A stretch of 64,000 nucleotides of DNA from Ulota crispa (taxonomy: Eukaryota; Streptophyta; Bryopsida; Orthotrichales; Orthotrichaceae), in assembly GCA_963920765.1 (NCBI GenBank), contig OY987247.1:6420471-6484470 (forward strand), in the 5' to 3' direction. The stretch's first letter is position 1, and every line of letters begins with the position of its first letter. The notes below the pieces were generated by a model that saw nothing but the letters and a program-made list of their open reading frames with translations, ran no database searches and was not told the origin of the DNA. Shown here piece after piece: positions 13,841 through 64,000 of the stretch. The translations under genes and the position numbers were made by a program.

Positions 13841-15396
13841 CCCCTCATTGCCTAAGGGGATGTTTTGTGTCCTCTAGCTGGCCATCACTCCAACTTGAAG
13901 TGCTATAACTTTTGCGTTGATTGTCCAAATTTAATAAAATTTGTTGATAAAGTTGAGCATACTAATCAAGTTTCTATGATAAAATTTCCAAATCAGTATA
14001 AGACATATTGAGTTTGTGAGAACCATTCAAAGTTCACAGGGTCCTTGGGGAGATCACTTAGTGTATCTGTAACTAACCATGTGAGTTAAGTGGTTTTTTG
14101 TTCCCCTATTTATTTTTAAATGAACTATGATTTCAACTAACAATTTCAAGCATTGTTTAATCAGGACTATAGGATTCTATTGCCAAAATCTTCAAACCAA
14201 ATAATGTATTGAATGATTTCTAGAGAAGGTTGAAAAATGAACTAAAATGGCATGATTTTCAACTCAAATATTTATAAAGAACACATTTAGATGACCATTG
14301 CATCAATATTCAAGAGATATAAAATTTCAATAGAATTTCATTTTTTAGATTTTTTTGTGTATTTAAAAAAAAAAATCTTATATAAGATAGAGGTGTGAAA
14401 GTTGTTTTTAGCTCTACAGTGAATCATATTTTTTCAAAAATTTGTAACTAATTATTGGTAACAAATAAAAATATCAATAATTCATAACATAAACTTTTGA
14501 AGTAGGAGAATCTACTCATATTTTTTCTTTTCCTTTTATATAAGTTTTAGGACATAAGATAGGGGTTCAAAATCTTAACGCGTGTAGTTTTTAAAAGACC
14601 CTCTTAGTGATCTCCCCAAGACAAGGTCAATTTGATTTCACCACAATGCATTGTGCTAGCTGCAACTTTGGGGTCTTGTATCATTTTCATTAAATGTTTG
14701 TTTTCAATGAAATTTGTTGGGTTTTTTACCCCCTTAAAGTCTAGAAACTATACTAAATTTTTCATGTCAATCCAAAAATTTTGGAATGTTTGGGCACCTC
14801 TCACATTTCAAAATCCACACATTTTTTATTTACAATGAACTTTGGTGGTTTATAACTTCTTCATAGAAACTTTGTTTTCAATATTTGTTATTGGGAAAGT
14901 TGCGCATACCAGTCCAATTACTATGGTTAAAATTTCATATCAATCCAAAAAGTTATGAGTGAATGAAAAGCATTTTAGTAGAGGGAGGTTTTGCCATAGA
15001 TGTGATTTTTTGCTACTTTTTCACTGATTTTTGACATTTCAAAATAATTTTGCAAACAAATAAGTATATTGATTGATATTTTCTTTCACCAATGTGTTTG
15101 TATATTAGTTTGAATCACATTACATTTTAATTATTTTTCATTTGAGTACGTTTAGATATAAAATTTCAACTCCAAATGTGTTTTTAAGAAAATTTCAACA
15201 TCTTTTTGCAACACTAAAACATTACAATCTTTCAATCTATGTGGTCAAATGACCGCAAATTTGATCCACATCATCTACAACATGCACACTACAAGATTAT
15301 ACGGTTGAGATTTTCATACTCTATTGGCATTCAAAATTACAAAACTTCAAAAACAAGGATGCCTTTAGGCCCTTTTGGACCTTAGACAATGAGGAG
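13841..15396. mobile_element. TTAA-flanked piggyBac-like non-autonomous element (copy F)
   Basis: Left end CCCCTCATTGCCTAAGG follows TTAA (13837-13840). The right end, read in reverse complement, is CTCCTCATTGTCTAAGG and is followed by TTAA (15397-15400). Near-identical inverted ends and a symmetrical TTAA duplication are the piggyBac signature. The interior is AT-rich, has no transposase frame, and holds the 577-bp hAT-like insert at 14044-14620. Confidence 0.65.
14044..14620. mobile_element. hAT-like MITE nested in a TTAA element
   Basis: Inverted ends CTTGGGGAGATCACTTAG and, on the other strand, CTTGGGGAGATCACTAAG. Flanking octamers ACAGGGTC (14036-14043) and ACAAGGTC (14621-14628) match at 7 of 8 positions, as expected for an 8-bp hAT-type duplication. 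It has no coding capacity. Confidence 0.65.
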
Positions 15397-15400
15397 TTAA

Positions 15401-16521
15401 AAGGTTAAAGGCAAGGTGACCTTAGAATTGAATTCTATATCATTTGTTCACTGACCTTAGAATTAACTTCTACACCATTTGTTCACTCTTTGCTAGTTTG
15501 GTTGAATGACTCATACTAAGTACAACTCTAATTTTGCACTTGCATGACCAGAAGCACTATGCATCGAAATTGTTTTGCATAAACAAACACAAAATTTGGC
15601 TAGTGTTTGAAAAATCCTCCAATTTTTGTTTTTTCTACATATAACAATGACTTCTCGTGCCACCTATCATCTCATGAAACAAATCTTTGAAACTATCAAT
15701 TTTATCTCTTCAACCACAACCACACGTAAGCCAGTACTTGATCGTAAATCCAAGTGTGTCAATATCAGATTCAATCCGCCCCCACGTAAAAGACCTTTTG
15801 AATTATCAAATTTGTTATCGAACAATGTTTTATTTGCAAAATTAGTCAAATAATTGGTCATCTCAAATATCAATAAATTGGATTGATTGTTTTTAGCAAA
15901 TCAAAATATAATTCTTACTGAATCAAATAACTAAACATATATTTATTCATGTACTCAAATTCATATAATATTTGTGAAGATCCTAAGCTCTTAATTGTTG
16001 ATATATATATAAATATAAACAATGATTAGGCAATATATGCTTTTATAATTGATGTTTTCCCAATACCCAAGAATCTAATCATTTCAATTTGAAATATATG
16101 AACTTAGTCCATTATAAGAATATGTATTCCCAAAAATCAATCGGGTCTTCGCTTTGCAACTGTTATCGATTTTGGTTTTTTTTTCTAAAAGAATTATAGA
16201 AATTAAAGTTTTTCATTTGAAAATAGACCGGGTTTTGGATGTCAAAAATTTGTACTAAGAAAATTTCAATTTCAAAAGCTGTACTTTTGATATATAATAG
16301 GCTTTGCAAAATTTGAAAGTTTTCAAGTTTCTTGTTTCAATCGGTGTTAAAAAAAAAGAGCTTGACATCATTTTTGTATAACTCGTTTCCATTGTCAATA
16401 TGGTTTTCTTTTGTCATATACGAACTTCATAAAGTGGTTTCTAAACAACATGTTTTATCCATGATATTGAGTGTTAATGTTGTTTCTATATAAAATCTAG
16501 ATTTAATTTTAGCTTTAAAAT
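15401..16521. other. AT-rich intergenic stretch, no gene seen
   Basis: Low-complexity A/T runs and a few short open frames (for example about 15626-15853) without recognisable similarity or splice context. No RNA gene or terminal repeat was found. Confidence 0.6.
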
Positions 16522-16678
16522 CACTAGAAAAAATCTTGCAGTAAATGACTAGTTCACAACGATTGCAAATGTCCTAGATAGCTGTAATTGAGTCATTGTA
16601 TAATTTTTCATTGTGTAGTTGTTTAGGATATTTGCGGTTGTTGTGAACCAGTCATTTAAGATAGTTTTTTCTTCTAGT
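16522..16678. mobile_element. CACTA-like MITE
   Basis: Left end CACTAGAAAAAATCTTGC. The right end in reverse complement (ACTAGAAGAAAAAACTATC) lacks the very last base. Inside the ends both arms share TAAATGACTRGTTCACAAC. AAT flanks both sides, a 3-bp duplication as used by CACTA (CMC/EnSpm) elements. The size is close to the CACTA-like MITE at 28904-29057. Confidence 0.55.
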
Positions 16679-17019
16679 AATTGTACAATTGTAATAAAAC
16701 AATTCTAAATTTCTGAAATTTCACAATCATCAAAAAGCTCATGATATTTTCAAAATTATTTTTCTTGTGTTTTATGGTCACAATGAGCATATCAAGGCCA
16801 CTTGGTGTATTCAAACAAAGAAATTCATTAACCACAATAAGCTAAAAAAAATACCCTTACAATGTTTAAAAATTGGAATTTTCCTGCTGTATTTATAAGT
16901 TTTTCAATGTATAAAATTAAATTTAAAACTTGGTTTGTATTATCTCTTGAAAACGTGTTGTAATTGCAATGTTAAAATATTATGGAGCAATTTACATCTC
17001 TCAAATTTTCTGAAATATT

Positions 17020-17036
17020 AGAAATCCTCTTTGAAA
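17020..17036. repeat. 17-bp target-site duplication, 3' side of the LINE
   Basis: AGAAATCCTCTTTGAAA is repeated exactly at 24900-24916 and fixes both ends of the minus-strand LINE. Confidence 0.95.
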
Positions 17037-17362: not shown

Positions 17363-18715
17363 CTAATTGACAAAGCAAGGTGGAGGATTGTAGAACCATG
17401 TGACTGAATGCCCTTCATCAATACAGAAACAAGGAGGGCTAGTAATCCATTGGGTGTAGAAGGCAATTTCAATCTTTTGGAGTGTGTCCTCATCTTTAGG
17501 GAATTGATGGATGTAGCGCCATGTTGCAAGGCTTGCATGCAAGGTGCTCAGCCATGCTCTTTGCATAACGAGGATGATTGAGGCAGGTTCATTGTTGAAA
17601 CACTGATGGCAACCTTCTATCCAGATGAACCAAATGAGGTGGCAGCGTAGATTATCCCAGGGGTGCTTGTCGTATACATACTTGAGCTTTGTAGCACCTG
17701 TGATAGGCACCCTGAACCACCCGAAGAGTGCTTGCTCCCATGATTCGTAACGAGAGCCCTTGTGTTGGATTGTTGCATGATGATAGCGTCTCCAGAACTC
17801 TTTAGCACACCCGCACCTCCAAAATAGGTGACTGTACATCTCCTCTTGTCTAAACCTGCATAATTCACATGGTGGCGCTTCAAGCATCCCTATGTGTTTG
17901 AGCCATGCTCTTGTAACAACACCGCAATTGATGAGGGACTAGAGGAAGGTTGCTAACTTGCGGGGATGGGATTGGTGCCATAAGAACTTGTAATATTGCT
18001 TATGGTTTGCTGGGTTGTTCCCTCCTACCTTAAAGATGTCGTTTGCTTGGATGTGTGCTTTGCGTGCAGGAGTCCTATTTTTGTAACCACGTTTTACAAT
18101 ATATTCATAGAAAGGCGGTGGCTTGTGAGATGGGATTTTTCCCCAAATCCAGTCTCCCAAGTCACATGGGAGGTCAATGAGGAATCTGGATCCAACTAGG
18201 TGGACTCTGGATCTAGGCGAAATTCCGAGATTGAGTTGGGAGAAACATTGGCTCTATGAGTTCCATGTTGCAACCTTTACAGGCATGTAGCAATGCCCCT
18301 GCAATCTATAGTTGCTCTGATCTCTGAGGAGTAGCCTAGAGGCCGCTTGCAAGATAAAACAAGCTGCTATGATTGTCTGGTTGGTAGTATTGATGGTCAG
18401 AATGAAGAAAATATGTCGGAGTTCTTGGCCGATGTCTTCCCCGACCCATTCGCCTTCCGTCAGCTTGTATGGGATTTGTGGATCCCACATGATCAATGAG
18501 ATTACCTTGACCCTATTTTCTACGTAGCTTTCCTTGTCTCTCAGTCTAGGGAAGTGAGTTGCCAGCTCTACTGCCAATTGCCAATCATCTCGTTTAAAGT
18601 TCCATAGGTCACTAACCCTTAGTAGGCCACCTTGTGCCCATTGTTGTAAACTAGCTTGCTCCCCAAAGCCAGCTGGTTGGCCATGTCCGTCATGTATGCT
18701 GGGGTTGCCGAACAA
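17363..18715 (-). pseudogene. LINE ORF2 C-terminal connector and zf-RVT region, broken
   Basis: It ends in CELCRFRQEEMYSHLFWRC followed by a tryptophan-rich segment (FIWIEGCHQCFNNEP), the usual zf-RVT ending of plant L1 ORF2 proteins. The upstream connector (18254-18715) is in a different frame. The stop near 17363 leaves about 325 bp of 3' sequence before the target duplication. Confidence 0.75.
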
Positions 18716-19087
18716 GGGTTGCTGGAGGATGCCGAAGGCATTCTTTGGTTCCTATTGTTGTAATGCCGACCTGATAGAGATGAATGCCTGAATTGCTGAG
18801 TTCATGAGTTTAGAATTTTTGCCTTTGGAGATGGATTGGTTGTAGAATAGCCAATTAGTGCTTGCTTGCCAATCGGATTTCCCTACCGATTTGCTTTCTC
18901 CAATCTTGTGGTGTACAATGATCTTCCAAGCTTCATTTCCGGGGCTTAAGCCGCAAATCACCAGTTTAGTCAGAAGTGCCTTTATTTGGATGAAGGGCTC
19001 AAAGAGCTTTATTCCATCGTCAGTGAGAGTTTGTATGCAAGTGTCCTAGCACACTTTTGCCTTGCAATTGTTGGTCTCTCTCTTGGA

Positions 19088-20300
19088 CTAGATGAAGTTG
19101 CGTAACAAACCTCTAATAAAATTGCAATGATTTTTATCTAACCTGCAGCTAGCTGCAGTGTACCAGTATATGGCCATTAGCACTTGGTTGCAGGCTAGGA
19201 TTTGCCCTGCAAGGAATAGGTGCTGAGCAACAAAATGGTATAGCTTGGTTTCGAGGGTTCGGAGGAGGGCTTGGCAGTTCGCATTAGGGCTGATCTTGAA
19301 TCCTACTTTCAGCCCTAAATATTTGGCTGATTCTCTGTGTGGTACCCAATTGAAGCCAAAATCATCTCCCCACTGCACATTTTGTAGTTTTGGTGACGCC
19401 CAAATTGTTTGCTTCTTCTTCCAATTGACTCTTGAGCTAGATGCCATACAGTAGGTGTTCAGCACACCTTTTGCTTTCTTTTCAGATTGTTTTCTGTGCC
19501 ATGTAAGAAGAGAGCTATATCGTCCGCGTAAGAGGAGTCGGTGAGTGAGCTTCCTCCAAGCAGGTGAAACCCTTGGATAGCATATGTTAGATCCTATAGC
19601 ATATAACCTAATGAGTCCATCACAAGGATGAAGAGGAAGGGGCTACCGAGCAGTCTTGGCGAACTGATATGATAAGTGGGAAGGAGCGGCCAGTTTTCCC
19701 ATTGATGATGATTGCAGAAGATGCGTGCGTGTATAGGGCCATCACATACATTAGGAAGTCAGCTCCAAACCCTAGTTTGGATAGGATTGGCTGCATGAAA
19801 GTCCAACTAATGTGGTCAAAGGCCTTTTCAAAATCCAATAGTAGGAGTGCTAGATCTTGTTGGCTCTGTTCTACTTACACAAGGGATTCTTGTGCAAGAA
19901 CAATATTGTCTAGGATGCATTGGCCCTGGATGTACCCGGTCTGGTTAGGGCATATGATTCTTGGTAATAAGGGTTTCAGCCTATTTGCAAGAATCTTTGC
20001 AATAACCTTGTAGAAGGAGCCAGGCAAAGATATGGGTTTGTAGTTGGAAAGAAGAGTTAGGTCACCGTCCTTTGGAACTAATGTGATAATTCCTTGGCTG
20101 AAGTTAGAGGTGAGCTCTCCGGACTGGAGGGCTTTGTTGATAGCCAATAGTAGTTCCTTGTGGATGTGCTCCAAGCAGTCTTTAATGAACTCGTTGGGTA
20201 TACCATCTAGTCCCGGGGCTTTTTCGATGGCGAGGTTGAGTACCACCTCTCGTAGTTCAAAGAGGCCTACTTCCTGTGCTAAGTCCTTGTTCATTTGCTA
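19088..20300 (-). pseudogene. LINE ORF2 reverse transcriptase, broken
   Basis: Translated pieces show the non-LTR RT blocks in order: KAPGLDGIPNEFIKDC, then ILANRLKPLLPRIICPNQTG, then MDFEKAFDHISWTF, a RQDC box where RQGC is usual, SSYADDIALFL at about 19510-19545, and the SAKYLGLKVGF thumb segment. The fragments are separated by stops or frame changes. Confidence 0.9.
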
Positions 20301-20889
20301 TGTGACCATGAGAGGTACTTTGGAGCAAACTTCGGTGAGTGCATCTGCCGTATTTGCATTCCCCTTGTCTTGGCTGTAGAGGGCTTAGAAAAAATTGGTT
20401 GCCTCAGCTAGTTTTATAGATTGGTCGGAGATAGGAGTATTATTGACCATGAGGAGAGGAATGTGGGTTTGCTGCGGTTGAGCTTTATGGTACCAGAAAA
20501 AACTCTTTGTACACTGGTCTTTTTGGCAGGTCCAGAGTGCTGACATTTCATGGTGATGTTTCTCTAATTCTTGCATTATTTGTTTTTCCAGCTTTATTTG
20601 CCGTCTAGTGGCTTTTGAAATTACTGTTTCATCTCCTGGGTGGTGGGTGAGGTACAGTTCTGTAGCTTGGATTTTGGCCAGGAGCTCTTGTTCTCTTTGG
20701 AAGTAGTTGTTCCAGTTTTTGCTTGGAGATCCTGATTGCCATGGAATTCACCCTAGCCAAGGCTCCTTCTATCCATATTAGCCAAGATTGACCCTCAAGG
20801 TTTGGCTCGGAACTCCAAGAGTTTTCAAGCTGAAGCTTGTGCTGAAGATTTTTAAGAATACTAGGATTGAATCGGCCCTTTCTTGTTTT

Positions 20890-21985
20890 GGTTCTATCAA
20901 GGGAAGGGTGTCTAGTGAGCAAGACCGAGCAATGGTTGGAAAGGCTCCTAATGTGTGGAAAAATGAGGTGTGTACTGCCACTTTCCTCTATGAGGAAACT
21001 CGTGTAAAACCTGTCTAACCTTGCTTTTTTGTTAGCTTGTCGCCTTGTCCTGCTCTTGCATTGTCCCACGTGTGTTGCTTGGAGTTTTGGTTCTTGATGG
21101 TGTCACATTGTGCTGCATCCTGTAAGCCGTATGTGTACAGTAGTTGTGCCCACTTTGTTTTCTCGCTCCAATTCATCCCAAGCCTAGTCTCTTGGCTTCC
21201 TTATCTATCTTCTCTGCATTCTACCATGTTGAAATCTCCACTTAATATGAAGGAATCTGTCTCGATGTTTGTCTACCTTATCTGTCTCCAAAGCAGTTGT
21301 CTACCCAAGCTATCTGAGTGGGCCTAGATATTAATAACTATTAGAGTTGTATTGTCATCACATTGAAAAATGATGTATTGTGCTTTGCCTTGTGAGATGA
21401 TCTTGTTCTTGATGACCTTTGGAGCCAGATTGGACGATACTAGCATTGATGTTCCTCCTCTGCATCAAACTCCGTTATCAGCAATAACCCCTAGGCTCTA
21501 GAATTTGAGACCTCCTCTGAATGGCAAACTACTAGTGTTTATGCAGGCCTCTTGGAGAAACCAGTGTTCTTGGACTAGGATCAGGTGGGAAGGAGTCTCT
21601 AACCTCTCAAAAACCATACGGATGTGTGTTTGTTTTTTGATCCCTATGCTCCCTGTCAATACCTCTTGTATTGAGGGTGGCAATTGCTAGTTGGCTCTGC
21701 ATGATAGAGAAGTTTTTTTCTAGGCTTGGAAGCTCCCAGATGGATGAGAGATTTTGTGTTTTGGGCTGCCAATTAGATGTGTCATACTCATTAATGTCTG
21801 AGCTAAGCCAGTTTTCCATGAGTATGTTGGCCATGACACGTCCTTTGGAAGTTGAGAGTTTTCCGATAGCAGTGCTTGGGATCCATGAGTACTTGCAAGT
21901 TTTTATGACTTGAGTTTTAGGGGGACCTTGATAGCTGCGAGTATTGTCAATTCTTGGTGCTTTGGAAGCCCATCCCATTGGCTTG
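20890..21985 (-). pseudogene. LINE ORF2 endonuclease domain, broken
   Basis: The minus strand reads LAIATLNTRGID (start of an APE-type endonuclease), then LILVQEHWF, and, near 21200-21240, SFILSGDFNMVE. These are the N-terminal, QE and GDFN boxes of plant LINE endonucleases in the right order. They lie in more than one frame with several stops between them. Confidence 0.8.
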
Positions 21986-22594
21986 ACCACATGATGCTTT
22001 CCCAAGTCTTGTTCTTGTGCAGTTTGTGAGATAAGTTGGCAGCAAGATAGTTCTTGATTTGTTGTAGTAGAATTTCAGTGAAGGCTTGTGTGGTTGGACT
22101 TGGGTTCCCTTCCTTGAATTCCGTTGACATTGGCTCTATGAAACCATTTCAAAAGAACCTTGTTTGAGGAGGATGAAGTTTTCATTTGCTGTGCCTTTGT
22201 ATATCACATGCCAGATGCTAAGTTCTCGTCTACCTGTGATTAGGATATTTTCTTTCTTGGTGTGGAAGAGGTTTCTCAGAGCTTCTACCGAGAGATTTTT
22301 TCAGATAGCTTGATAGGTACTTGAGGCCTGACATTTGTTTCTAGCTCCTCTGGCCTTGTGTTTACCAATGTTTGCCAAAATCTATGCTGTATTAGGGCCG
22401 CGATTACTATTTCTGCAGTCTCTTTGTTGTTTGGACAGGCTCCATCTTCTTTTGCAGGTGATATGTGTTGCTCAAGGTTGGGAGCAGCCAGGGATAAAGG
22501 CAACTGTGTGTGGTAGGTGTTGGCTTGGGTTCTGGTGTAGATGTGTCTTTTGGTGATCCTCTTAATTTGAGTGGTCCCTGGATTAACTCTGTTG

Positions 22595-24273
22595 TTGTTG
22601 TGGGTAGCAGAGGCATAGGACTTTCGAAGGGTGCGGCTTGTGTTTCCATGTGCGCTTTTGTTCCTTCTTTTCCGGGTGAGTGTTCGGGAGGGGATCTAGA
22701 CAGGAGTGACATCTGGTGTGGGGAGTAAGGCTCTGCACTAGGCAAGAGGGGTTTGGATGATGGAGTAAGCTAGGTTGTTGGCGCGCCCGTAGGTGTTGGA
22801 GGATTTGGCACGACTGTGGGTTGGAGGGGCTCTGGAAGTAGATTGGGTATAGATATTGGCTCACTCATGGGTTGCAGGGATGTGTGGGGTGCTGTCTCAT
22901 CGACATCTTTAGGTTGAAGGCAAGCATAGGTGTTTTCATGGATTATCTCCTCAGGTGGTTGGTTATGGGATGAGGATGTGACCTTGTCTATCAGATTGCC
23001 ATGTTTCCTAGAAGATCTATTGTTTGAGTTTTGTTTCCGCCTCCTTCTACGTTTCCGTGTAACCTTGGGGAAGGGTATGTCTTTTGTTTTTTCCTTTTCT
23101 ACAATGGGTTCTCTAGTTGTGTTGAGTGATTTGTATTGCTCTAATCCGCAATCCTTACTAAGGTGGCCTAAGTTTTTTCTTCTATTGCATTGACCAGGTA
23201 AACTAGAATAAAGAACTTTCAAACGCAGGAGCTCACCTGCCTTTGCTGCTAGACATATCAATGGTAGCACTAAGGTAGCTAGTAGATCGTCAATCCTCTT
23301 CACGATGACATTGACAATTGGTCCAGATGGTCTCTTCACAAAGGAGTGCTTGTTCTTGACTGCCACAACCTCTCCAATTCTTGATCCAAATAACCTGTAA
23401 TACTTCTCTTCCTGAAATGCAAGCGCAAGGTCAGGGAATTGGAGGCTTACCAAAAATCCCATGTTGTAATTGGTACTTGTTGTGTGGGCCTTGAATTTGC
23501 TTTGCCATCAGTAGAAACGTATTGCTCGTCCCTCCCACGCCAGGTTCACCTTTTCCATGCACCTTGAGGCTCCATCCGCATCTGAAAAACTCAATCTAAA
23601 ATAATTCCTTTGCAAGTGTTTGCAGTGTGATGAAGTTATCTTATAAGTGTGTTCTAAGAAATTCTTTTAAGTTTGCGTACCCTGGGAAGGATCCTAGCAG
23701 TCGACCAAGGCTTGTGCGCCGTGAGCAATCTTATTGCTTGATTCTTAGCTCCTTAATTTCTTGTTCTGTGAATTCTATCATCAACTCTCCTTCTGGCTAG
23801 AATTGACCTTCAGTCTGATTGAACGAGGTTCCTGTGATTTTCGGTAGCCTTGTCGAGGATGTTGCAACCTCTAGGTATGTTCTAATAGCTTCTGACTTTG
23901 ATGCTGGGGCTTCAGCTTGCGGTGCATCCTAGTTTGCTGATAGGGTTGCCAATGTTGCTGAATTGTGGGTGCATGTCTTGGGCGTCTGATGCTCCTTTGC
24001 GCCATTGCTCTAGCATAGGCTACATAGCTCATGTAGATTTATGGAGGGGTTTTCATCTGTACCTCTTCCAGGTGGTTGTGGCGGTGTTTCTTTAGCGGCT
24101 TCCGAGGTTGGAGTGAGCTTCAATTTGTCACCTTCAGTTGCTGTGTCCCCTTCAAGTTGTGGCGGTATCAATTCAGCTGCTTCCGGGTCTGGACTTAAGC
24201 CTCCAGCTTCAGTTGGCGTGTGACCGGCTAATGGTGGCTCTGGCTCCATTACTGTGGTTCCGGATGATGTCAT
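22595..24273 (-). pseudogene. LINE ORF1 remnant with a CCHC-like knuckle
   Basis: Begins near 24273 with a proline/threonine/glutamate-rich leader (MTSSGTTVMEPEPPLAGHTP). A second open stretch (23462-22770) reads like the DUF4283/RRM-type ORF1 of plant L1 elements (EEKYYRLFGSRIGEVVAVKN). It then shows CNRRKNLGHLSKDC, a zinc knuckle in which the second cysteine is replaced by arginine, followed by a basic RKRRRRRKQN tract and a low-complexity proline-rich tail. The pieces lie in different frames, so it is not expressed as one protein. Confidence 0.65.
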
Positions 24274-24916: not shown

Positions 24917-25630
24917 CTTCATAAAAATACCATTGCAGCACAAATCAATGTAGTCATAATTATGTGATCAAAACATAAACACGCATTTTGGTTTGAGCTG
25001 ATTTTTAAAGCAAGCATATTCCTCTTTCTAACAATGTTATTTATTAGTTCAAAATAGATCACACAATAGAAATCAAATCCTAAATACAAAATCTTTGTTG
25101 TTGATTTGAAGCCACAAGTTTTCATGTATGATTGATTCACATAAATTAGAACAATTCTATACTAGGTAAAAATCTTTACACTGCGCAAATAATGAATGCT
25201 AATAAATTCCATGGAAAACATTTAGCAAAAGCATAGCGTTTAGAAATTGGTAACTCATCTATACAAAGTAACATTAAAAATGTACTCATGACAAATCATT
25301 AGCTTTTACTATATCTATGTTTAACAAAAACAAATGAAAGACTAAAGAATTACACTTAAATCAAACAAAATGGTTAAGTAGAATAGGAATCTCAAGAATA
25401 TTGCAAAGATCTCTTTACACAAAAGTAACAAAATGGTAAAGTTTGCATTTTATGGATAAAAACTCAAGATTTATCAATTTCTTTTTTCTCAAGATTGACG
25501 GTGACAACGGCACAATATATTAAATTAAAAACAAGCAACATCTACAATATAAAAGGTTGTGTGTTTGTATAGCACTTTGGTTTGAAAAGTAACTTTTTTT
25601 TTTTTTAATATCTTTTAACAGTAGTTTTCT
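24917..25630. other. AT-rich intergenic stretch, no gene seen
   Basis: Homopolymer-rich, short open frames only. No recognisable feature before the tandem repeats that follow. Confidence 0.6.
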
Positions 25631-25635
25631 TTTCA

Positions 25636-26640
25636 ACCTACTCAACTATTCTCAAGGTAGCTTCTCTCCATGCAAAGCTTGCCTTTTGTAACAAAATGGT
25701 AAACTTTGTATTTTCATGGAAACTTTCAACTTTTCAAGCTCTACAAACTTATTCATTTTCCAAGATAGACGGTGACAGCTTCACCTAGAATAATAAATTA
25801 AAAACAAGCAAATAAGGTACAAGAAGTTACAAGAAGCAATTTCCATATAACACTTTTTTTCTTCTTTCATTTCATATAGTTTTTAAAGAAGTGATTTGCT
25901 TTCTAAGTAAGATACGTACTCAAACTTGCTCAAGATAGCTTCTTCCAACCACCTCCACTTCCCAAACCACAACCCAACCTCCAAAAAAAACTTTTTCATG
26001 AATAACACATGTGATCCCCACAAACAACATTAGGTTTGCCACAAGCACCCACACAATACTTCCTTGGAATCTATCTATCTTGAATCACACTTACAAGAGG
26101 CAATGTCCCTATAGCACTCTCACTTGAATAACATCTCCTTTCATTTTTATTCATTTTACAATAATTATTTTTATCAAGTAAAATACACTTCCTCAAAATA
26201 ACTTCTCCCAACGCATACCCTCCTCCTCCACCCCCCAAACCACAATCCAAACCAAAAAAAAAAAAAAAAAAAAAAAAAACCATTTTCATCAATAATACAT
26301 GTGATCCCCACAAACAACATTGGGTTCCCTCCAAGCAACCACAAGGCACTTCCCTAGAATGTCTATCTTGAAGCACACTACAAGAGGCAAATGAATGTCC
26401 TTGCAACAGTTTGGATAATGTTATTCTTTTATCATTTTCATTTCATTATAAACAATTTATCATTTCAAAACAAAGTACATACTCAAACTTCCTCAAGGTA
26501 ACTTCTCCTAATGCAAACCTTCTTCTTCCTTAAGCACAACCCAACCCAAAAAAAAAAAAACCCTTTTCATCAATAACACATATGATCCCCACAAACAACA
26601 TTGGGTTTCCCACGAGCAACCACAGGGCACTTCCCGGGAA
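25636..26640. repeat. Degenerate ~285-bp tandem repeats copying the 3' end of the SAXO gene
   Basis: The landmark TGATCCCCACAAACAACATT recurs at about 26011, 26301 and 26584, about 285 bp apart. A second landmark near CTCAAGGTAACTTCTC recurs at about 25636, 25918, 26190 and 26485. The rightmost unit is the real end of the SAXO-like coding sequence. The units to its left are decayed duplicates of roughly the last 28 codons plus the 3' flank. Confidence 0.75.
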
Positions 26641-31760: not shown

Positions 31761-31858
31761 AATTTTGCATCACATGGTTCTATTAAACCAAAAGTGACCC
31801 TTTAGAAATATGTGATTCAATTCAATTCCTTCTTCCAATTCACCAAGTACTGAGTTTG

Positions 31859-41610: not shown

Positions 41611-41630
41611 TTATTAGATCTTTTTTTAAA

Positions 41631-41956: not shown

Positions 41957-42310
41957 TTAAATGAATACATCATTTTGAGTAGCTCATTTTGATTGGGTAA
42001 GAGAGTGTTGTGCAACTTCCATTGACCCATATGTCCTTTTAGTAGAGGACCAACATGGGAGAGAGAGGTACATGTGTAAAGTGATTTATACTAAGTCCTT
42101 TCAATAGAGGTTAACCATTGGTACTACATGTTCTTAAATTAGTATTTAAATATCAATAAACATAATATATTGAATTAACTTAAAATAAAATGAAGTACTT
42201 TATTAGTACACCTTGCAAATTCACTTGTATCTTGAATTAGTGTTAGTTAGCATTTTTAGTGCAAGAAGTAGTAATAGAAGTAGTTGTGTAATATTTGGTC
42301 AACTTGTTAA

Positions 42311-50959: not shown

Positions 50960-53900
50960 ATGAGCCGCGCTCTACTCTTCGACGTGGCCGCCAAGTAATT
51001 CCGCTTCCTCTGCTCCTCCTTCACCTGAAATTTTCACCGCATTGATCACAAAAGAAATGCATATCGTATCAGTACATTCATTCTGCTTGTTAGCAAATCT
51101 TGGTCAAATATCATGTCCATCTCTGTTTCTCGACTTGTTTGAATCGAAATTGCAATGATCGCAAAGAAGCGCGTAGTTTATCACACATTCATTCGAAAAT
51201 GTTAGCTAATCGTGGTCAAATATTAAGTCCTTCTCTGTTTCTCGACTTGTTTGAGTTGCAATTGCATTGATAGCTAGGAAGTGCGTAGTTTAGAAGTACA
51301 TTCATTCTGTTTGTTAGCAAATCGTGGTCAAGTATCATGTTCTTCTCTGTTTCTCGACTTATTTGAATTGAAATTGCATTGATCGCAAAGAAGTGCGTAG
51401 TTATTCATTCGAAGATGTTAGCAAATCGTGGTCAAGTAAGTTATCATGTCCTTCTCTGTTTCCGACTTGTTTTAATTGTAATTGCATTGATCGCAAAGAA
51501 GTGCATTGTTTATCAATACACTCATTCGAAAATGTTAGAAATCGTGGTCAAATATTATATCCTTCCCTGTTTCTCGACTTGTTTGAGTTGCAATTGCATT
51601 GATCACAAACGAAGTCTATGTTTTATCAGTATATTCATTCTGTTTGTCAGCTAATCGTGGTCAAATATTATGTCCTGCTCTGTTTCTCGACTTGTTTGAA
51701 TTGCAAATGCATTGATCGCAAAGTGCGTAGTTTATCAATACATTCATTCTGTTTGTTAGCAAAATCGTGGTCAAGAATCATGTCCTGCTCTGTTTCCGAC
51801 TTGTTTGAATCGAAATTGCATTGATCGCGGTGTTTTGACGGAGCTTTGACGGCCGTGACGTTCTGGAATTTCTGTGTTTAATCAGGTGGTGGTCAAAAAG
51901 CACCGTAGCTGTAGTGACGGGAAGCAACAAGGGCTTAGGCGAAGTGATCGCCCTAACGCTCGCGAGAAACGGCGTCACGGTTGTGTCCACGGCGAGAGAC
52001 ACTGCCCGAGGGCTTGCTGCCGTCAATGGCGCTGTGAAGACGGAGCCGCAGCTCAAGGAGTTTCTTCATTTCCACCAGCTCGACGTCACTGCGGACCAAT
52101 CCGTGGCCGAGTTGGCATCTTACTTGCAAGAGACCTTTGGCGGTATTGATATCCTTGTATGTTTTCTTTCTCAACTCCATTGCTTCCAGTTTTTGCAACA
52201 TCTTTCCGTTTCCACCTTACTTGTTAAAAATTTGTTGTAGATGACTATTAAACATTTGATATTCTTGTAAGCTGTTCTCTGTCCGTTGTTTCCATTGTTT
52301 GCAGATTCTATCCACTTCCACATTGTTTGTTTAAAACTTATTGTAGAGGACTCCATTAAGCACACGCTCTCTTGAAATCAAATCTTTAATGTTGTAAGTT
52401 TTGTCTCTCCAGTGTTTCCATTTCATTGCAATGTCTTTCCATTTCCACGTGATTTGTTTCAATTTTTTGTACAGGACTCTATCATGTATACACTCTCTTG
52501 AAACCAAATCTTTTAATGACTTCTTATGCAATCGTTCAAGGTGGAAGGTTGTAGATCATAATTGAAAGGCTAAAGGATTGTTTTCATGCAAAGATCAGAA
52601 AGATCAGTGGCTGCAGCATTTTATCAAGCCATGCTTAAACCGAAACCGATCTTGCTTACTGAGTGCAAACCAAGGGCCGGTTTACACTATGTTCCAAATC
52701 CAGTGGAAATCTTTAATTTTGATTGGTTGAGAGCTGAAAATGAAGACTTTGCAATTCATAATACGTCTGTTCTAAGTTCCGTGTCCCGATTCACTTAGAA
52801 ACTGCCTTACATGACAAGACTTTTTTGAAAGTTTTGACGTCATAAGAAGGTAAAATAAGAAACAAAACTTCAACTCAAGTCCCATAAATTTTTCCTTATA
52901 AGTTTTTTATGACTTTCAGTAGTATTTCATTTTGTCGAACAAGCTAGAATCTTACGTTGAGTTGAAGTGGGACTTGTTTAGTTGCAACGTGCGACTTGGT
53001 GTGAAACCCCGTAACTCTACTGAAAGTGATAAGTTTCTAAGGTCAACATAAAAGATGCAATTAGCTCTCTTCTTGTCTACTTTACGTTTAAGTAGCTAAT
53101 TATTCTAATTACAGAGATAGGCTTCTTGGAGATCTTGTTCTTTTGATAGTCTTTGACATGAAAGTGATCAATGTTCCCAAATGAGGTTTTCACAATTAGC
53201 TCAAGTGGCTAAAACACCACTAAATTATGCTAAACTAATCAAGTTGTACATTCTCAGCCAACAGTTATGCGTTCTTATCTAAAGCGTGAGCAGTTTTCCA
53301 TGTAGCAATATTTGCATATAATGTTGCTAACCACGCATTCTGAAGAGATCCTCTCCACCCATGGGTGTGTCTCTAGATGAGTTGCCACAATGTTCGAACC
53401 AAACAAACATGTTTTTGTTGTAGCAATCAATAAATCTGGTATATTTTTTGCTAATTCTAGCAGTTGTGGGGATTGGCAGGTAAACAATGCGGCAGTGAGT
53501 TGGACGTCCGAGGCGGATAATTACAACGACGCATTGTCTACAATTGAAACTAATTACTTTGGCGTGAGAAGAGTTACTGAAAAGCTATTGCCGTTGTTGA
53601 GAGCTTCGCCTTTTGGAGCTCGTATTGTCATGGTCTCTTCCCAAGTTGGCCAAACGGAGGTACTTAATAACTTACAATTTATCTTTCCTCTCTCTCTCTC
53701 TGCTAATGAATTGAGAATTAGAGACTTAGCTAAACAGATCCACCCCTTACTTAGGCCCTAACTGCTGAAGGCTCACACAGGAGGATAAGAGAAATAAAAG
53801 CTAATGGAGGTGTAGATTGTTGCTCCACCATGTCTTTAACTCTTGACAAGCTCAATTTTTTTTAAGTATGTCATTTCATCACCTTGAAAGCTCCTCTTGT

Positions 53901-55096
53901 AGATTGAAAAAGATTAGTGGTGGATTCATAATGATGGATGGACTTGGAGTGATAAGTTGACGGTTGACTCTGTATTGACTTTGATAGACAAATGGCATTA
54001 GAATTTGAGTTGTAAAAAACAAGGGAGAAGTGATAAAAAAAAAACTTGAAAATATTTACAAATCATAACTAGAAGGGTATTAAAGTTCCCTTACAAAATA
54101 TGCAGTTATTTTTAAGGAAATTTTTATGGATATCCCTGAAGTTTGCCATATTTGTATAGATACCCTGATTTTTCAGAAATTGCACAAATACCCTTGGACC
54201 ATAATTTTAAGAGGTTTGTTTTGTTATGCGCGCTCCTTCTTTCGTGACCAATGTTAAAGCGAGAACTGCAATAGAACGGAAAAAAAACAATGTGCGCACA
54301 AGGGAGAAAGAAGTGGCATGCACAATAGAACAAACGCCTGCAAATTATGGTCCAAAGGTATATGTGCAATTTCTGAAAAATCAGGGATATCTATACAAGT
54401 ATGGCAAACTTAAGGGATATCCATAAAACTTACCCTACTTTTAAATCCAATGATGGAGTATGCAAGAAAGAATCCAAGGATAGAATCTATCTTCTTGTCC
54501 CCAACTCTACGCATGCCAATTCTGTTATCTTTTATCTTCCCTACATTCTACAAAAGTCACCAAGAAGCTGAAATTAGTCCCCAAACTCCGAAAGTTTCTG
54601 ATTTTATCTATTTATTTTTTTGCTGATGGAACAGAACTTCGAACACAACGAGTACCTCAAGGGGAAGATTGCAGAAGCGTTAAAGGAGCCATTGGAAACA
54701 ACTATCCCAGATGCTCTTGCAACCAAGTATTTGGAAGACGTGAAAGCGGGAAGAGCACTGGAGGAGAATTGGGGGAAGAACCTGTTCCAGTACCGAGAGT
54801 CAAAGCTCTTCCTCAACATCTACACACGCGTCTTAGCATCGCAGCTGCTCCAGAGCAGACCCGAGGGTCGGAAGATCTTCGTGAACGCCGTCTGCCCGGG
54901 AGCCATGAAGACCGATTTCCTCAACTCTTTCATAAACAAAGTGGGTGCTGCCAAAGCCGAGGAGATGTCGGCGTCGGTGCGGTGGACGTCGAAGGAGCAG
55001 GCTGGCGTCGCATGTGCGTCTCTGGCGCTCTTGCCTGTTGACAAGTGTTCTCAGGGCAAGTTTTTCGTTAAGGAACTCGAAGAAAGGGCTTGGTAA
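50960..55096 (+). CDS. Carbonyl-reductase-like short-chain dehydrogenase/reductase
   Basis: Exons 50960-50994, 51886-52156, 53480-53659 and 54635-55096 join in frame to 315 residues. The plant-type start KWWSKSTVAVVTGSNKGLG holds the NADP(H)-binding TGxxxGxG (residues 23-30). NNAAV follows at 104-108, the catalytic serine region is VSS (154-156), the catalytic Y/K pair is in YRESK (215-219), and PGAMKTDF is the usual PG motif. The ~50-residue insertion between VSS and YxxxK is characteristic of the carbonyl-reductase/menthol-dehydrogenase/salutaridine-reductase group. It should be a monomeric NADPH-dependent ketone or aldehyde reductase; the substrate cannot be inferred. All catalytic residues are present. 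Introns 1 and 2 carry tandem repeats and intron 3 a MITE. Confidence 0.93.
51090..51835 (+). repeat. About seven ~110-bp tandem repeats filling intron 1 of the dehydrogenase gene
   Basis: The landmark AATCGTGGTCAA (or a close variant) recurs at about 51094, 51205, 51322, 51423, 51540, 51652 and 51763, each followed by TCTGTTTCTCGACTTGTTTG and GCATTGATCGCAAAG. They occupy most of the 891-bp intron and stop about 50 bp before the acceptor. Confidence 0.9.
52130..52515 (+). repeat. Tandem repeats duplicating the exon 2 splice donor
   Basis: Roughly 120-bp units begin at the exon 2 end. GATATCCTTGTATG (used donor, GT at 52157) is echoed by GATATTCTTGTAAG (GT at 52267) and GTTGTAAGT (GT at 52394), each followed by a TTTCCATT...GCA and TCTTTCCATTTCCAC-like tail. 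The copies carry donor-like GTAAGC and GTAAGT. Confidence 0.65.
52516..53479 (+). other. Remainder of dehydrogenase intron 2
   Basis: No exon or element recognised. It ends with the acceptor GATTGGCAG before GTAAACAATGCG. Short open frames here lack support. Confidence 0.55.
54116..54435. mobile_element. Mutator-like MITE, copy c, in dehydrogenase intron 3
   Basis: Ends GGAAATTTTTATGGATATCC and, inverted, GGGTAAGTTTTATGGATATC. Flanking nonamers TATTTTTAA and TACTTTTAA match at 8 of 9. 320 bp with the same internal motifs as copies a, b and d. Confidence 0.85.
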
Positions 55097-56023: not shown

Positions 56024-56959
56024 CCCCTGAGCGCCCCACAGACCAGAATGTGGTTGCTCAAAATCAAATTTTATTAGAACAAGGTCCAAATCAAATGTAT
56101 ACTATCTTGGAAAGTGTACTTTTTGTAGGGTACGGTATTACTCTCATACCACAAAGAGGGTGATGGGGATTTCACCACTTGTACAAGTGCGGACAATGCG
56201 ATATTTGTTAATTTGGGAAAAATGGTACATTTTGGGACTTTCAAGAAGTGAGTCAAGAAGTTTCAAGTGATCACCTCAAACTGACACGTGCCCCCACTTG
56301 AGAGGAGGGATTTGCAAGGGAAAAAATCTTAGTGGCTCAAATTGAATTTGATACCTTTGAATCTGGTATTAAAGTAACTTTTTGGGTTTGAGAGGATAAC
56401 AAAGTGGGACCTTGGTTTTTCCCAAATTAATAAATATTATGCCAAAATGAAATTTTGTGCATTTTAGGGTTCGGGCACAAGGATAGAGGACATTGGTATG
56501 GTCGGTGCCATACCATTAGGGTTGTTTTAGCACGCATGCCTCAGATTGAAGAAGGGTTTTGCAATTGTACCACCTAGAGCTATGCCCTTGTGAAGGTCAA
56601 AGCCATAGATGTCACAATATCACCAAATTTGGTAACAAGCGAGACAATTGTATATCACACCCCTTGCCTAAATTTCATCAAAAGGAGCCTCCTTTGAAGC
56701 ATGATTTTTTGCGTCCATAGCCACAAATCCCCCCAAAAATGGCTAATTGCCACATAGTCAACTATACTTTGACTATTATAACCTCCAAAATGGTGAGATC
56801 AAAAATTTTGCAAATTTATGGTCGGGTGCATCAAGCACCCTTTTTGCTATTTTAACGGTGAATCCTCCTGATATAATTTCCCAACTCAGGGCAAACAATG
56901 TTTTCAAGCACTGTCCCTTTTAACCTCATTTTTTGGATTCCACTGCTGGCGTTCAAGGG
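56024..56959. mobile_element. TTAA-flanked piggyBac-like element (copy C)
   Basis: TTAA (56020-56023) then CCCCTGAGCGCCCCACAG; right end in reverse complement CCCTTGAACGCCAGCAG, then TTAA (56960-56963). 936 bp, no transposase frame recognised. Confidence 0.75.
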
Positions 56960-57529: not shown

Positions 57530-57752
57530 CCCCTGAGGGGCCCTTGGGCTCTAGAGATACGGTACCAAATTCGGTCACAACAAATATTCAAAAGTTTGAA
57601 TCAGCTCAAAATTAAGCGTTGCAACCATACATATTGAAAGGTTGTATGATGGTGGATGCATTTTTTTTTTGGAAAGCCCTCAAAACAACTCAAATACGTC
57701 TATATATACGGCCTTACATACAGCCGCAAAGGGCTTTCGGGCCGTTCAAGGG
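57530..57752. mobile_element. TTAA-flanked piggyBac-like element (copy D)
   Basis: TTAA (57526-57529) then CCCCTGAGGGGCCCTTGGGC; right end in reverse complement CCCTTGAACGGCCCGAAAG, then TTAA (57753-57756). 223 bp, the shortest copy in the window. Confidence 0.75.
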
Positions 57753-58303: not shown

Positions 58304-60342
58304 TTAAAACTGGAGCCCTGAAAAAGTTTGCCCGTATATCCAGAATTGTGGAGCGACGTTCATGCTCGTCACCGTGCGGCCGTCTTCGGACGTGACCATG
58401 AATGAGAGGCTCTGTCCATTCAGGTTGGTGTTGATTTGCCAGTTCTGGCCCCAGTTGCGCCACATTGGCTGCCAGTCGGGTGTTCTGGAGCCTTTGATCT
58501 TCACTGCTTGAATGTTGCCAGTGCCGCCGACGTTTGTGATCAGCACTAAGTTGAAGAACTTGTGTCCGTTGACGGTGAAGTGCATGCCCCCCGACCTATT
58601 GCACGAAACTCTGCGCATTGACACACTACTTTAAACCAGTTGAAGAGGATCCTTTGAAGATAGTTATGGGTAAAATTATGTTTGAGTTCACATGGAAGCA
58701 CAATAAGAATTAAGAGGGACTTGTGGAGATGGTAGAATAATCAATCAGACGGAAGAAACTGGAAAAGACATGGACAAATTTAAGTCATGTGACCGATATT
58801 AGAGGCTCAAGAAATGTGACTTGCAAGTGCTCAAAAAGGTTTGAAAACTATTGCTTAGCTGAGTTCTGAGGTAGACAGTGAAAACCTAGAGGTTTGAATT
58901 TAGGACAAGTAATGGCAAATAGGCTCAGTGATGCTCCAGCTTTTTAGTGGTGCAAACAAGATTGGCTCCAGTTTTGAGTCCAGAAAACTACAGCTATACG
59001 ATAGTCTCTCAAAAATGTGCCTTCACTATTAACGCCGGCCAATCTTGTGAAATTCCAAGTTAGAAATTGAGGATCCAAAAACCTCTTCTTGAATGAAGAC
59101 AAACTTCTTGTAGGGGTTAGTATCTTTGAAGATCGAGAAAGATCTTAGTTTTAAAGACTAATTAGAACTTCAAAGTAGGCTACAATGGCAAGTTTGATGT
59201 AATTATATTGTTTTGATAATACTAATGAAATGGTGGAGATTAAGTTGGACAAAAGCAGAGAGTGAGTGTGCGGGCGTACCTTCGGTACATGACAGGCACA
59301 ATGCCTGCGCGGAACCGGGCGATGCGAAGAAAGGCCGGCTGAGCCATGTCGAAGTGTTGCCTGGGCATGTTGCACCATCCTCCGTTGTTAGTGGGAATAT
59401 GCGCATTGGGAGGGCAAAAATTGGTGGCCGTGACAGTGATGGAGGGGCTGCCTGGGATGCATCCTGCCGCATTCGTACCGCACTTGACCTCAAAGCACGA
59501 CCCGCATGAGAAGCCGGAATTGTAAAGAGCTGTGCTCAAAGCTACAGTGTTGGTTCCGTATCCGTGGATGAACACGTTGCCGTAGCCGCAAGAACCACCT
59601 GCATTGAGTCAATGCCAGACAAACCGACGTCAGAAGTCTTGTTGAGTGCGTGTAATCCACAGAAAATGCAAAATAGCACAATTTGGTTCAAGGTAACTTG
59701 ATAGTAGAGCGTCGTTACGCGAATAAACAAGCCGAGCTATGGCGTGCATCGTAAAAACTTTATGCAAAAATCTGGTAATATATGCTGGCTTGTTCTCATA
59801 ACAAGATCCCTGTCTCAATACTTGGATCCTGTGAAATTACGCTCAATCAAGCACCTTTAGAGTGGATTCAAATACAAAACCTTATAGGCTTTACACCATC
59901 AACATACTCACATTTTAGTTTCAAACCCCCGCCTGTAACGTTACGTGAAACTCTTGCCAAAGGAATTCCATATGAATTAGTACACAGGGAAATGTGAGAC
60001 AGGGAAAAATCAGAGAAGAAATAGATAGAAATGTTTAACAACTCACAGGGAAAACGTGAAGAATTCCTGAAATGCGACATGGAAATTTACAAAATTTTGC
60101 TGTTAACTAGTCAGGACTATTCCAACGCCAGAGAGCAGACAACGACACTCAGTTAATGGTGAGAGGCAATGCCAAACAACTGCAACTGGCATGTACATAC
60201 CCATGGTTCCTGCAGCGTCACTGCCACCATAGAAAGTTGCCGAAGCACCAGTCCATCCGCTCCAGCCGCCTCCAACAACTCCTTGCACGAAGAAGACCGC
60301 CAAGAGCACACACAGGAGCTTAGTGTGGACAAAGCTGGCCAT
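58304..60342 (-). CDS. Alpha-expansin
   Basis: Exons 60201-60342, 59280-59598 and 58304-58610 join in frame to 255 residues. Residues 1-24 are a signal peptide ([20 protein letters not shown]), so it is secreted to the wall. The mature N-terminal double-psi barrel shows [20 protein letters not shown], the paired cysteines, and the HFD motif (129-131) in HFDMAQPAF. The C-terminal CBM63-type domain has [29 protein letters not shown] and the end QTFSGLQF. The alpha-type insertion and [14 protein letters not shown] support EXPA rather than EXPB. Expansins loosen cellulose-hemicellulose contacts at acid pH without hydrolysis. Length and residues look normal. The upstream side carries a 171-bp tandem repeat. 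Confidence 0.95.
59940..60110 (+). repeat. Segment of expansin intron 1 shared with 32.9-33.0 kb
   Basis: Similar in direct orientation to 32873-33047 over about 170 bp. It lies within intron 1 (59599-60200), about 90 bp inside the donor. Confidence 0.6.
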
Positions 60343-60559
60343 CGTATTATATCGTAGTAAGTTACACTCTATGTTAAGAGTAACATACATTCAAACGGAA
60401 CCACACAATGCCAAGATCGAAAACAGTCACCGTCTACTGATAAATTGGTCCTAGCCTCAAACGCTCAAAACGACGAACTCCACAGTAAGATATCATTAGG
60501 TCACTGAGCCTCGCACGCGTTACAGCGCATTCGTGAGCGAAACATGTCATGCAGCTCAT

Positions 60560-61190
60560 GTACGTCCTTAGCAAGTCCAAGTGCAAGCAACGAATAGCAA
60601 AGCACACTTAGCACAGTGCATACAGCTGATTGAACGCAAACCAATTGGTGCAAACGGAACCAAAATGCCAAACGGTTTTTTAAGCCGAATTACAAAAGCA
60701 CGCGTGAGTTCAGAGAGTCTCGAAGCTCATGTATGTTCTAAGCAAGTCCAAGTGCAAGCAACGAATAGCAAAGCACACTTAGCACAGTGCATACAGCTGA
60801 TTGAACGCAAACCAATTGGTGCAAACGGAACCAAAATGCCAAACGGTTTTTTAAGCCGAATTACAAAAGCACGCGTGAGTTCAGAGAGTCTCGAAGCTCA
60901 TGTATGTTCTAAGCAAGTCCAAGTGCAAGCAACGAATAGCAATGCGCGGAGCATGCAGCTAATTGAAGGCAAATAAATCGGTCCAAACGGAACCGAAACG
61001 GCTAACGATTCCTCGAGCCGAATTACAGAGCATTCGTGAGTAAAACAAAATCTCACAGCTCATGTATGTTCTCCACAAATTAAACCAAGTGCAAGCAAAG
61101 AATTGCAATGCGCGGTATATGCAGCTAATTGAAGGCAAACAAAGCGATCCAAACGTAACTTAAATAGCGAACGATTGCTCGAGTTGAATT
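60560..61190. repeat. 171-bp tandem repeats upstream of the expansin gene
   Basis: Two virtually identical 171-bp units (from about 60580 and 60751) are followed by two more divergent ones (about 60922 and 61085). The landmark is AAGTGCAAGCAACGAATAGC, then ACGCGTGAGTTCAGAGAG. Because 171 is a multiple of three, an open frame runs through the first units, but the composition and later decay argue against a protein. The region lies 220-850 bp upstream of the start codon. Confidence 0.9.
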
Positions 61191-61721: not shown

Positions 61722-62063
61722 GGGTGAAATTTGAAATTAAAAAAAAAAAAAAAAAAAAAATTCATGGATACCTCTAAAGTTTGTCATATTTTCATAGATA
61801 CCTGTGCTTTTTCAAAAATTTCACTAATATCCTTGGATCAAATTTTCAGGTGTTTCTTTTGTTGTGCATGTCACTTCTCTTCTTCCTTTATACACTTGCA
61901 TAACAAGAAAAGAATAATGTACGCACAAAGGAAGAAGGGAAGTGGCATGCACAACAATACAAACGTCTAAAATTTTTGGTCCAAAGATATTTGTGAAATT
62001 TCTGAAAAAGTAGAGATATCTAAGAAAATATGGCAAACTTCAGGGGTATCCATGAAATTTCCC
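61722..62063. mobile_element. Mutator-like MITE, copy d
   Basis: Ends GGGTGAAATTT and, inverted, GGGAAATTTCATGGATACCC, with the family's internal motifs (CACTTCTCTTCTTCCTT and its complement). An A-run of more than 20 bases interrupts the left arm. Flanks AAAAAAGAC and AAAAAAGAA resemble a 9-bp duplication. Confidence 0.75.
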
Positions 62064-62467
62064 AAAAAAGAATTATCCAAGGATATTCCAAAAAAATAAC
62101 TAATTATAATATACTCAAGGTAGAAACATAGGAAGTAATTGAAAAACTAGTCGAAAAGTGAGAAATGCCAGATTTTAGCTCCCGAAGCTAAAGTTTCTTT
62201 TAATTCCAATTATTGTTTTTAAATGTGACTATAAAAAAATCCATTGTGATTCTATCTTGAAAAATAATTAAGTTTTTATGCGAAAATTCAATTTTGATAA
62301 ATTTTCCACTTTCTTTTTTAGGAGAATGGTGATTTGGATTTATTTGTTGAAAATTAATATTGTATTTTTTAAAATTTTCACTTAATCATGTTTGTTACAA
62401 AAAACGAGGTTTTTTTTCCTTTTCGAAACAGCATTGATTTAGGTTCATGGTATTTTTATTTTTTGAA
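62064..62467. other. AT-rich intergenic stretch, no gene seen
   Basis: Homopolymer-rich, no recognisable feature. Confidence 0.6.
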
Positions 62468-63396
62468 CCCCTAAGGTCCTAAGCTATTTTTTCACCAAAA
62501 ACGGCTCCAAAACTGCCATTTCTAGTACAAGTACCAACTTTTAGAAATAAAATAAAATTCTACCCATGTAGCCATACGATCCTATACTACACTAGTATCA
62601 AAAGATGTGAAAAAAAAAAATCAAAAATTTCCACTATGTAGATTGTAAGATATTTGAGTTTGAATTGACAAAAAGTCATTTTTTGTCCCTGCAAAAATCT
62701 AGGGAGCTGCACTTCACAAGGTCATATTTGTATGAAAAAAATTCCAAAATGGTTGTAACTCTTTGGATTTGTCCTTCAAAGCAAGTTGAGTACACACTTG
62801 AAATTTGTCAAATCATTTGGAATTGTACAACACATGGGAAAAAAATATTAAGTAAAAAGAAGTAGAGAATGATTCTAACCACTAAATTGTTAAGAACTTA
62901 ATTATGGAAATGTAAAATTCCAATCCCTATGGTGGTAATGTTGTAATAAACAATCTACATCCTTAGGTTTTGTCTTTTTTCCAAAATATTGAAAATTGAG
63001 TAAAATAAAGGACTTCAAAGTTTATTTTAGAGTAGAGATTCCATGACTGTCAAGAAACAAACTCTCCTCATAATTTTCATCTCATTGATTAAAATAGAAT
63101 GATTCAAAGCTTCCCATGTATACATAAATGGAAAGAACCAATTCCAAAAAAGCAAGATTCAAAAAATGTAATTTTTAAATAAGTTTTCTATCTATCTGAC
63201 GAGCAAAGAAAATAGCATATCATGTAATAACTTTTGAACCAAGTAGTCAAAAATTATGAAATTTGTTGGGCCTTAAAGCTACTCCTTGGACACATCATGT
63301 GTGAAAATTTCAGAGAAAAAAAATAAAAATTCCATTGATAGTGAGCTGTCCAAAATTGCTATGTTGCAAAAAAAAAGATGTTCAATACTTTAGGGG
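62468..63396. mobile_element. piggyBac-like element (copy H), one TTAA altered
   Basis: Left end CCCCTAAGGTCCTAAGC follows TGAA where TTAA is expected; right end in reverse complement CCCCTAAAGTATTGAAC, then TTAA (63397-63400). The right part is similar to copies G and I (ACATAGCAATTTTGG). Confidence 0.6.
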
Positions 63397-63400
63397 TTAA

Positions 63401-63753
63401 TTGTATTGAAATGGTAAATTGTAAAAAATTATAGTTTCTTGAATCAAGTCAATGTCAATAGATAAACATAGACTTTGAAGTGGACAAAACAAAAAAAAAT
63501 AGTTTAGGCGTTTTGGACGACAAAGGAGGAACCATCATTCTTGACCATTTCAATTTTATTATGTTCAATTGACTATTCATAATAAGATATGTGTTATTTG
63601 TTGTTGTGACGATTATTCAAAAGCGTTGTTTTAAGAAATAATGCAATGATTGGTGCTTATGTTGATGAATTTTGGTAATTCCAAACCACCTGTATCCATC
63701 CTCAGCACGGACTTCTTGACTATCCACCCTAAATTTTGGAGTTTGATCCTTAA
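63401..63753. other. Intergenic stretch between two TTAA elements, no gene seen
   Basis: AT-rich with no recognisable feature; ends at TTAA 63750-63753. Confidence 0.6.
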
Positions 63754-64000
63754 CCCGTAAAGGACCAGACCCCTTTTTAGAAACATAGCGATTTTGGGCA
63801 AGTACCTGTGATTGAAGTTTTTCATATTTTAGGTTGAAATTTTAACAGAATGTGGGGACGAGGTTTATCTTTCATACGCACTAAATTTCATGGCATTTGG
63901 AATTATGAGTAAAAAGTTATGGCCTAATATGTTTTTTTTTACATTTGGCGGGCAGGCTGGGCAGATTTTTAAAAATCATTTTTTTCAAAAACAAAGTTTT
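63754..64000. mobile_element. piggyBac-like element (copy I), continues past the window
   Basis: TTAA (63750-63753) then CCCGTAAAGGACCAGACC. The next ~220 bp resemble, in inverted orientation, the right part of copy G (34650-34891) and of copy H. The other end lies outside the window. Confidence 0.65.

Follow-up and report, generated by a model that had tools for sequence, protein, structure and literature searches.

The Ulota crispa contig OY987247.1 carries, within a stretch of 64,000 nucleotides (positions 6,420,471 to 6,484,470; hereafter the window), a set of TTAA-flanked, C-ended elements that are probably old non-autonomous DNA transposons. Judged from their sequence, these elements (223-1556 bp, resembling miniature inverted-repeat transposable elements, MITEs) were probably mobilised by piggyBac-type cut-and-paste. 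They have similar ends beside TTAA in numbers well above control expectations, one family has common subterminal sequence, and the window holds half of an empty site for one of them. Coordinates below are those of the window, and L or R after a coordinate denotes a left or right element end.

Shared ends beside TTAA

We located 16 element ends, belonging to seven two-ended elements and two single ends (Table 1), and confirmed in the sequence each of the nine element positions listed in a preliminary description of the window. TTAA adjoins 15 of these ends, as expected on both sides of a piggyBac element, and the sole exception is TGAA at the left flank of 62468, the altered flank recorded in that description. 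The end motif proposed there, CCCYTRA or close variants beside TTAA, also held: 11 ends match it exactly and five are variants (13841L, CCCCTCA; 15396R, CTCCTCA; 28159R, ACCTTGA; 47421L, CCACTGA; 63754L, CCCGTAA). CCC, the expected piggyBac terminus, stands at 13 of the 16 ends, and the first two bases are CC at 14 ends, CT at one and AC at one. Within each of the seven two-ended elements, the terminal inverted repeats (TIRs) match each other at 10-13 of 14 positions, which fits the piggyBac expectation of inverted repeats of about 12-19 bp. The single end at 34891 is a right end, with its last base at 34891 and TTAA following at 34892-34895.

The motifs are short and the pairs were initially picked by eye, both of which speak for coincidence. 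CCCYTRA occurs 40 times on the two strands of the window and is preceded by TTAA in 10 cases, compared to about 0.2 expected, TTAA starting at just 0.5% of window positions. The same count made with AATT, TATA, ATAT, TAAT, ATTA, AATA and TTTA gave 0 or 1 each. The pattern TTAA CC[CA][CT]T[AG]A matched 11 ends (mean 0.65, maximum 3 in 100 dinucleotide shuffles), and a strict pair rule returned 5 pairs (shuffle mean 0.21, maximum 2), one of them a cross-pair, so that only four of the seven elements were recovered. This partial recovery favours chance coincidences of CCC and TTAA selected by the reader, whereas the shuffles, the AT-rich word control and the subterminal sequence common to 34891R, 63754L and 63396R (z 10.7 to 21.3) contradict it, making coincidence extremely improbable for the set. 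Single elements, for example 57530-57752, could be due to chance.

Target-site length and half of an empty site

A different account of these flanks would be that the elements are MITEs of PIF/Harbinger (TWA duplication) or Tc1/mariner (TA duplication) inserted in TTAA-like contexts; both superfamilies yield well-known plant MITEs, as noted in an angiosperm MITE review (PMC10004981), and TA, TTA and TAA are all contained in TTAA. Among the 40 CCCYTRA words, however, TTAA makes up 10 of the 14 preceded by xTAx, 10 of the 11 preceded by xTAA and 10 of the 11 preceded by TTAx. The outer bases of TTAA thus look fixed too and all four bases look constrained, which counts against the 2-bp duplication of Tc1/mariner, given TTAA at 10 of 14 xTAx sites, and against the 3-bp TWA duplication of PIF/Harbinger, given the fixed fourth base. 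A 3-bp duplication would also leave the two ends of an element asymmetric. We therefore regard either type of MITE as quite improbable.

We then compared the 204-bp flanks of all 16 ends against the window, and found a paralogue reaching the junction only for the right flank of 34891. An alignment of 31858-32229 with 34891-35267 spans 377 columns at 84% likeness and begins one base ahead of TTAA; this base, a G, is in one copy the final base of the element. TTAA is present in the copy at 31859, but the element is not. We found no other copy of its left flank in the window, where matches do not exceed 18 bp and the best agrees at 17 of the 24 bases beside TTAA. Because the left half of the comparison is lacking, 31859 would represent half of an empty site and no more. 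Two further leads were rejected: the overlap of the 27919 left flank with a foldback repeat stops before the junction, and the right flank of 63396 matches another sequence over 22 bp from beside its TTAA, but that counterpart has no TTAA there.

Two candidates for a left end of the 34891 element were also rejected. Position 33658 is TIR-like by eye at 14 of 16 bases and flanked by CCAA, and was discarded as a transposon end because it lies within an apparent germin-like coding sequence (Cupin_1 match). At 34517 (flank ATAA), the left flank is no closer to that of the empty site than shuffled sequence is (score 27 versus a shuffle mean of 31).

Several families of probably old insertions

Relatedness beyond the first 13 bases, assessed over 120 end pairs as z against shuffles, indicates that the elements comprise several families under a common end rule, rather than the one family of the preliminary description. 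The ends 34891R, 63754L and 63396R are clearly related, 28159R and 56959R are more weakly related (z 5.9), 42311L with 63396R is a borderline case (z 4.8), and none of the other 115 pairs exceeded z 3.6. Two shared asymmetric end types first read from alignments were not supported by this null test. Identity could be measured for one copy pair, 34891R and 63754L, which are 78-79% identical, suggesting old insertions. The elements may be relics, and an active source elsewhere in the genome, which had been expected, does not follow from them.

Fit to piggyBac and to Kolobok

The five elements longer than 500 bp (13841-15396, 42311-42847, 47421-48122, 56024-56959 and 62468-63396) contained no transposase domain in any of six frames scanned with stops as X, the sole match being a sub-threshold DUF3980 (E 0.038, in 47421-48122). 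Scans of the three minus frames of 33200-34891 and the three plus frames of 63754-64000 returned only a cupin and a sub-threshold TetR_C_9 match. The elements behave as non-autonomous, in agreement with the earlier observation that the copies lack a transposase, and piggyBac membership is read only from their ends and target. In this respect the piggyBac interpretation stands in part: the TTAA target and C-rich ends fit the published signature and the testable rivals fit worse, and the scanned copies offer no transposase domain to confirm it. Under this interpretation, a transposase made elsewhere would be supplied in trans and recognise the CCCYTRA-type ends; elements would be cut out at these C-rich ends and inserted into TTAA, which would become duplicated on both sides. 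Such a transposase presumably belonged to the piggyBac superfamily and was presumably encoded in this plant genome.

For piggyBac elements, a coral study describes TTAA duplications and 12-19 bp TIRs with CC[C/T]T termini (PMC2872659); CCCT is the commonest terminus in beetles (PMC12732532), and CACTA, CCCTC, CCCTT and CCCAT occur as ends in small animal genomes (PMC10813416). Acropora AmiPB and CMITE elements, as described in the coral study (PMC2872659), resemble those of the window in their TTAA duplications, short C-rich TIRs (~13-14 bp), many small transposase-less copies and several TIR families per genome, and AmiPB2 CCCTTTAACGCCC is close to CCCTTGAACGCCA of the window. In contrast, the coral MITEs are accompanied by piggyBac-like elements with transposase open reading frames (ORFs) and by an empty allele, and CMITEs are ~100 bp with a conserved core, whereas the elements here are 223-1556 bp with diverse interiors, in a plant-like host. 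We compared all 16 ends with nine left TIRs from coral (AmiPB1-5 and CMITE II, III, V and VI; CMITE I, CMITE IV and all right ends were left out), and four ends share 11 of 13 positions with one of them: 27919L, 56959R and 57752R with AmiPB2, and 42311L with CMITE III. Shuffles with the first five bases fixed equalled this match in 0.7-2.7% of cases, uncorrected over 16 tests. Two of the three left ends that we folded, including that of 27919-28159, carry, a few bases inside, a stretch of the TIR in inverted orientation (z -4.6 and -3.9), recalling the subterminal repeats of the Trichoplusia ni (moth) piggyBac (PMC10140906).

Several results weigh against assigning the elements to piggyBac. 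In addition to the missing transposase domain, only 3 of 16 ends strictly match CC[C/T]T, and CCCCT, found at nine, is outside the commonest published forms, though it is as in CMITE III (CCCCT...), which the coral paper assigns to piggyBac (PMC2872659). The likeness to coral TIRs is unremarkable for 13841L, 62468L, 63396R, 34891R and 63754L (shuffle fractions 0.13-0.44), the third folded left end, 42311L, has no palindrome (z -0.8), and the likeness between 31859 and 34891 could begin at TTAA for another reason.

Kolobok and Sola3 are also TTAA-targeting superfamilies, and non-autonomous members of either could leave similar flanks. Kolobok elements have TTAA duplications and are known from chlorophytes and rhodophytes (PMC9587614), and the Kolobok T2-MITEs of Xenopus likewise combine TTAA duplications with non-autonomous copies (PMC6004289). 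Kolobok ends, however, are given as 5'-RR (PMC9587614), with AG in the Xenopus table (PMC6004289), and RR..YY termini are not what we observe here, 14 of 16 ends starting with CC. These CC ends count against Kolobok, and we consider an origin from Kolobok or Sola3 unlikely.

Wuneng and Microuli are TTAA elements that originate from rice. Their likeness to the elements of the window lies in the TTAA duplications, and is taken from their mention in the coral paper (PMC2872659), not from sequence.

The elements and their genomic setting

The individual elements, which we interpret as piggyBac-type, are listed in Table 1. Of the first 24 bases, 22 are shared between the right terminus of 47421-48122 and the left terminus of 56024.

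Table 1. TTAA elements, single ends and the paralogous flank pair in the window.
Feature	Position	Length (bp)	Ends (left / right)	TIR agreement	Flanks	Remarks
Two-ended element	13841-15396	1556	CCCCTCATTGCCTA / CTCCTCATTGTCTA	12/14	TTAA both sides	Six frames: no Pfam match
Two-ended element	27919-28159	241	CCCTTGAGCGCCCA / ACCTTGAGCGCCCA	13/14	TTAA both sides	Right subterminal sequence resembles that of 56024-56959
Two-ended element, clearest copy	42311-42847	537	CCCCTAAATGTCCA / CCCCTAAATGCCCA	13/14	TTAA both sides	Six frames: no Pfam match
Two-ended element	47421-48122	702	CCACTGAGCGCCCA / CCCCTGAGCGCCCC	12/14	TTAA both sides	Six frames: DUF3980 sub-threshold only
Two-ended element	56024-56959	936	CCCCTGAGCGCCCC / CCCTTGAACGCCAG	10/14	TTAA both sides	Six frames: no Pfam match
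Two-ended element	57530-57752	223	CCCCTGAGGGGCCC / CCCTTGAACGGCCC	11/14	TTAA both sides	
Two-ended element	62468-63396	929		10/14	TGAA left, TTAA right	Six frames: no Pfam match; right end of same family as 34891 and 63754
Right end of element	34680-34891		Inward reading CCCCTAAAGGAAC		TTAA after	34680 is only the point where likeness to 63754 ends; left end not found in window
Left end of element running beyond window	63754-64000				TTAA before	Related to 34680-34891
Right flank of 34891 end	34892-35267					Paralogous to 31859-32229
Element-free paralogue of that flank	31859-32229				TTAA at 31859-31862	Half empty site

The gene content of the window suggests a land plant with motile sperm. 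An exon similar to SAXO1-2 (sperm axoneme) lies at 28095-28475 on the minus strand (E 1.2e-5; 24.9 bits, slightly under the Pfam cut-off of 26.5), and the element at 27919-28159 appears to sit in an intron of this SAXO-like gene, directly after a donor-like CAG/GTTTGT on the minus strand. Close to this exon, segments of ~260-290 bp are tandemly duplicated at 25425-26653 and may be reiterated exons of that gene. Other coding segments are a DPBB/expansin-like exon at 59240-59608 (minus), exons of a short-chain dehydrogenase at 51.8-55.1 kb, and a Cupin_1 match at ~33493-33786 (minus; 22.8 bits versus a cut-off of 22), the cupin segment at ~33.5-33.8 kb on the minus strand reading as germin-like.

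The window also holds repeats of other kinds. A Ty3/gypsy-like element with long terminal repeats (LTRs) at 1883-4045 and 10297-12459 (2163 bp each, 99.7% identical) is a recent insertion; it has reverse transcriptase, RNase H and integrase zinc-binding domains, with an ORF upstream that matches DUF4100. A degraded stretch resembling a long interspersed nuclear element (LINE) extends over 17363-23507 (minus), limits that are a guess from adjoining ORFs, with a reverse transcriptase match only at 19875-20297. A foldback (palindromic) repeat family of ~275-333 bp, separate from the TTAA elements, has four copies (41629-41961, 54111-54437, 61757-62063 and 27522-27796), certain of whose ends lie near AAGGG, and further palindromes lie at 27117-27526 and 36787-37203. 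Tandem repeats occupy 51039-51828 (112 bp, ~7 copies) and 60553-61190 (171 bp, ~3.5 copies).

Discussion

The preliminary description held piggyBac elements to be rare or unreported in land plants, and we found the first of these to be the better word. A 2022 land-plant review names six TIR superfamilies and its main text does so without piggyBac (PMC9033089), and a 2025 beetle paper calls plant cases occasional, with red algae as an example (PMC12732532). A 2023 bee paper, however, describes piggyBac as known in plants, fungi and animals (PMC10140906), a 2023 angiosperm MITE review counts PiggyBac as one of seven superfamilies (PMC10004981), and a 2024 plant review includes it (PMC10794571). 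At the level of single genomes, the table for Ceratopteris richardii gives 1,230 PiggyBac elements (PMC6890710) and that for feather-grass a single 75-bp match (PMC8319324); a paper on the moss Niphotrichum was set aside, as the term there is 'piggybacking' and not the transposon. The Ceratopteris elements share with ours the piggyBac label and a seed-free land-plant host, and differ in being solely a tally from repeat annotation (1,230 elements, 122,417 bp; PMC6890710). In a literature that excludes most subscription papers and Repbase, land-plant piggyBac is therefore seldom described but reported, and the elements of the window add a structurally clear case to a kind already known from sparse descriptions, without constituting a new one.

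We see about an even chance that a land plant with swimming sperm has, or long had, its own piggyBac lineage, in which several end-types were amplified independently; piggyBac would then be a TIR superfamily native to seed-free plants and missing from at least one current land-plant classification. Should long copies encoding a piggyBac transposase turn up in the genome, the superfamily would join the transposons of seed-free land plants on structural evidence, beyond a software label. Such a find would also raise the question of whether the lineage descended vertically or was acquired from animals, fungi or algae, and could supply a plant-adapted tool for seamless excision.

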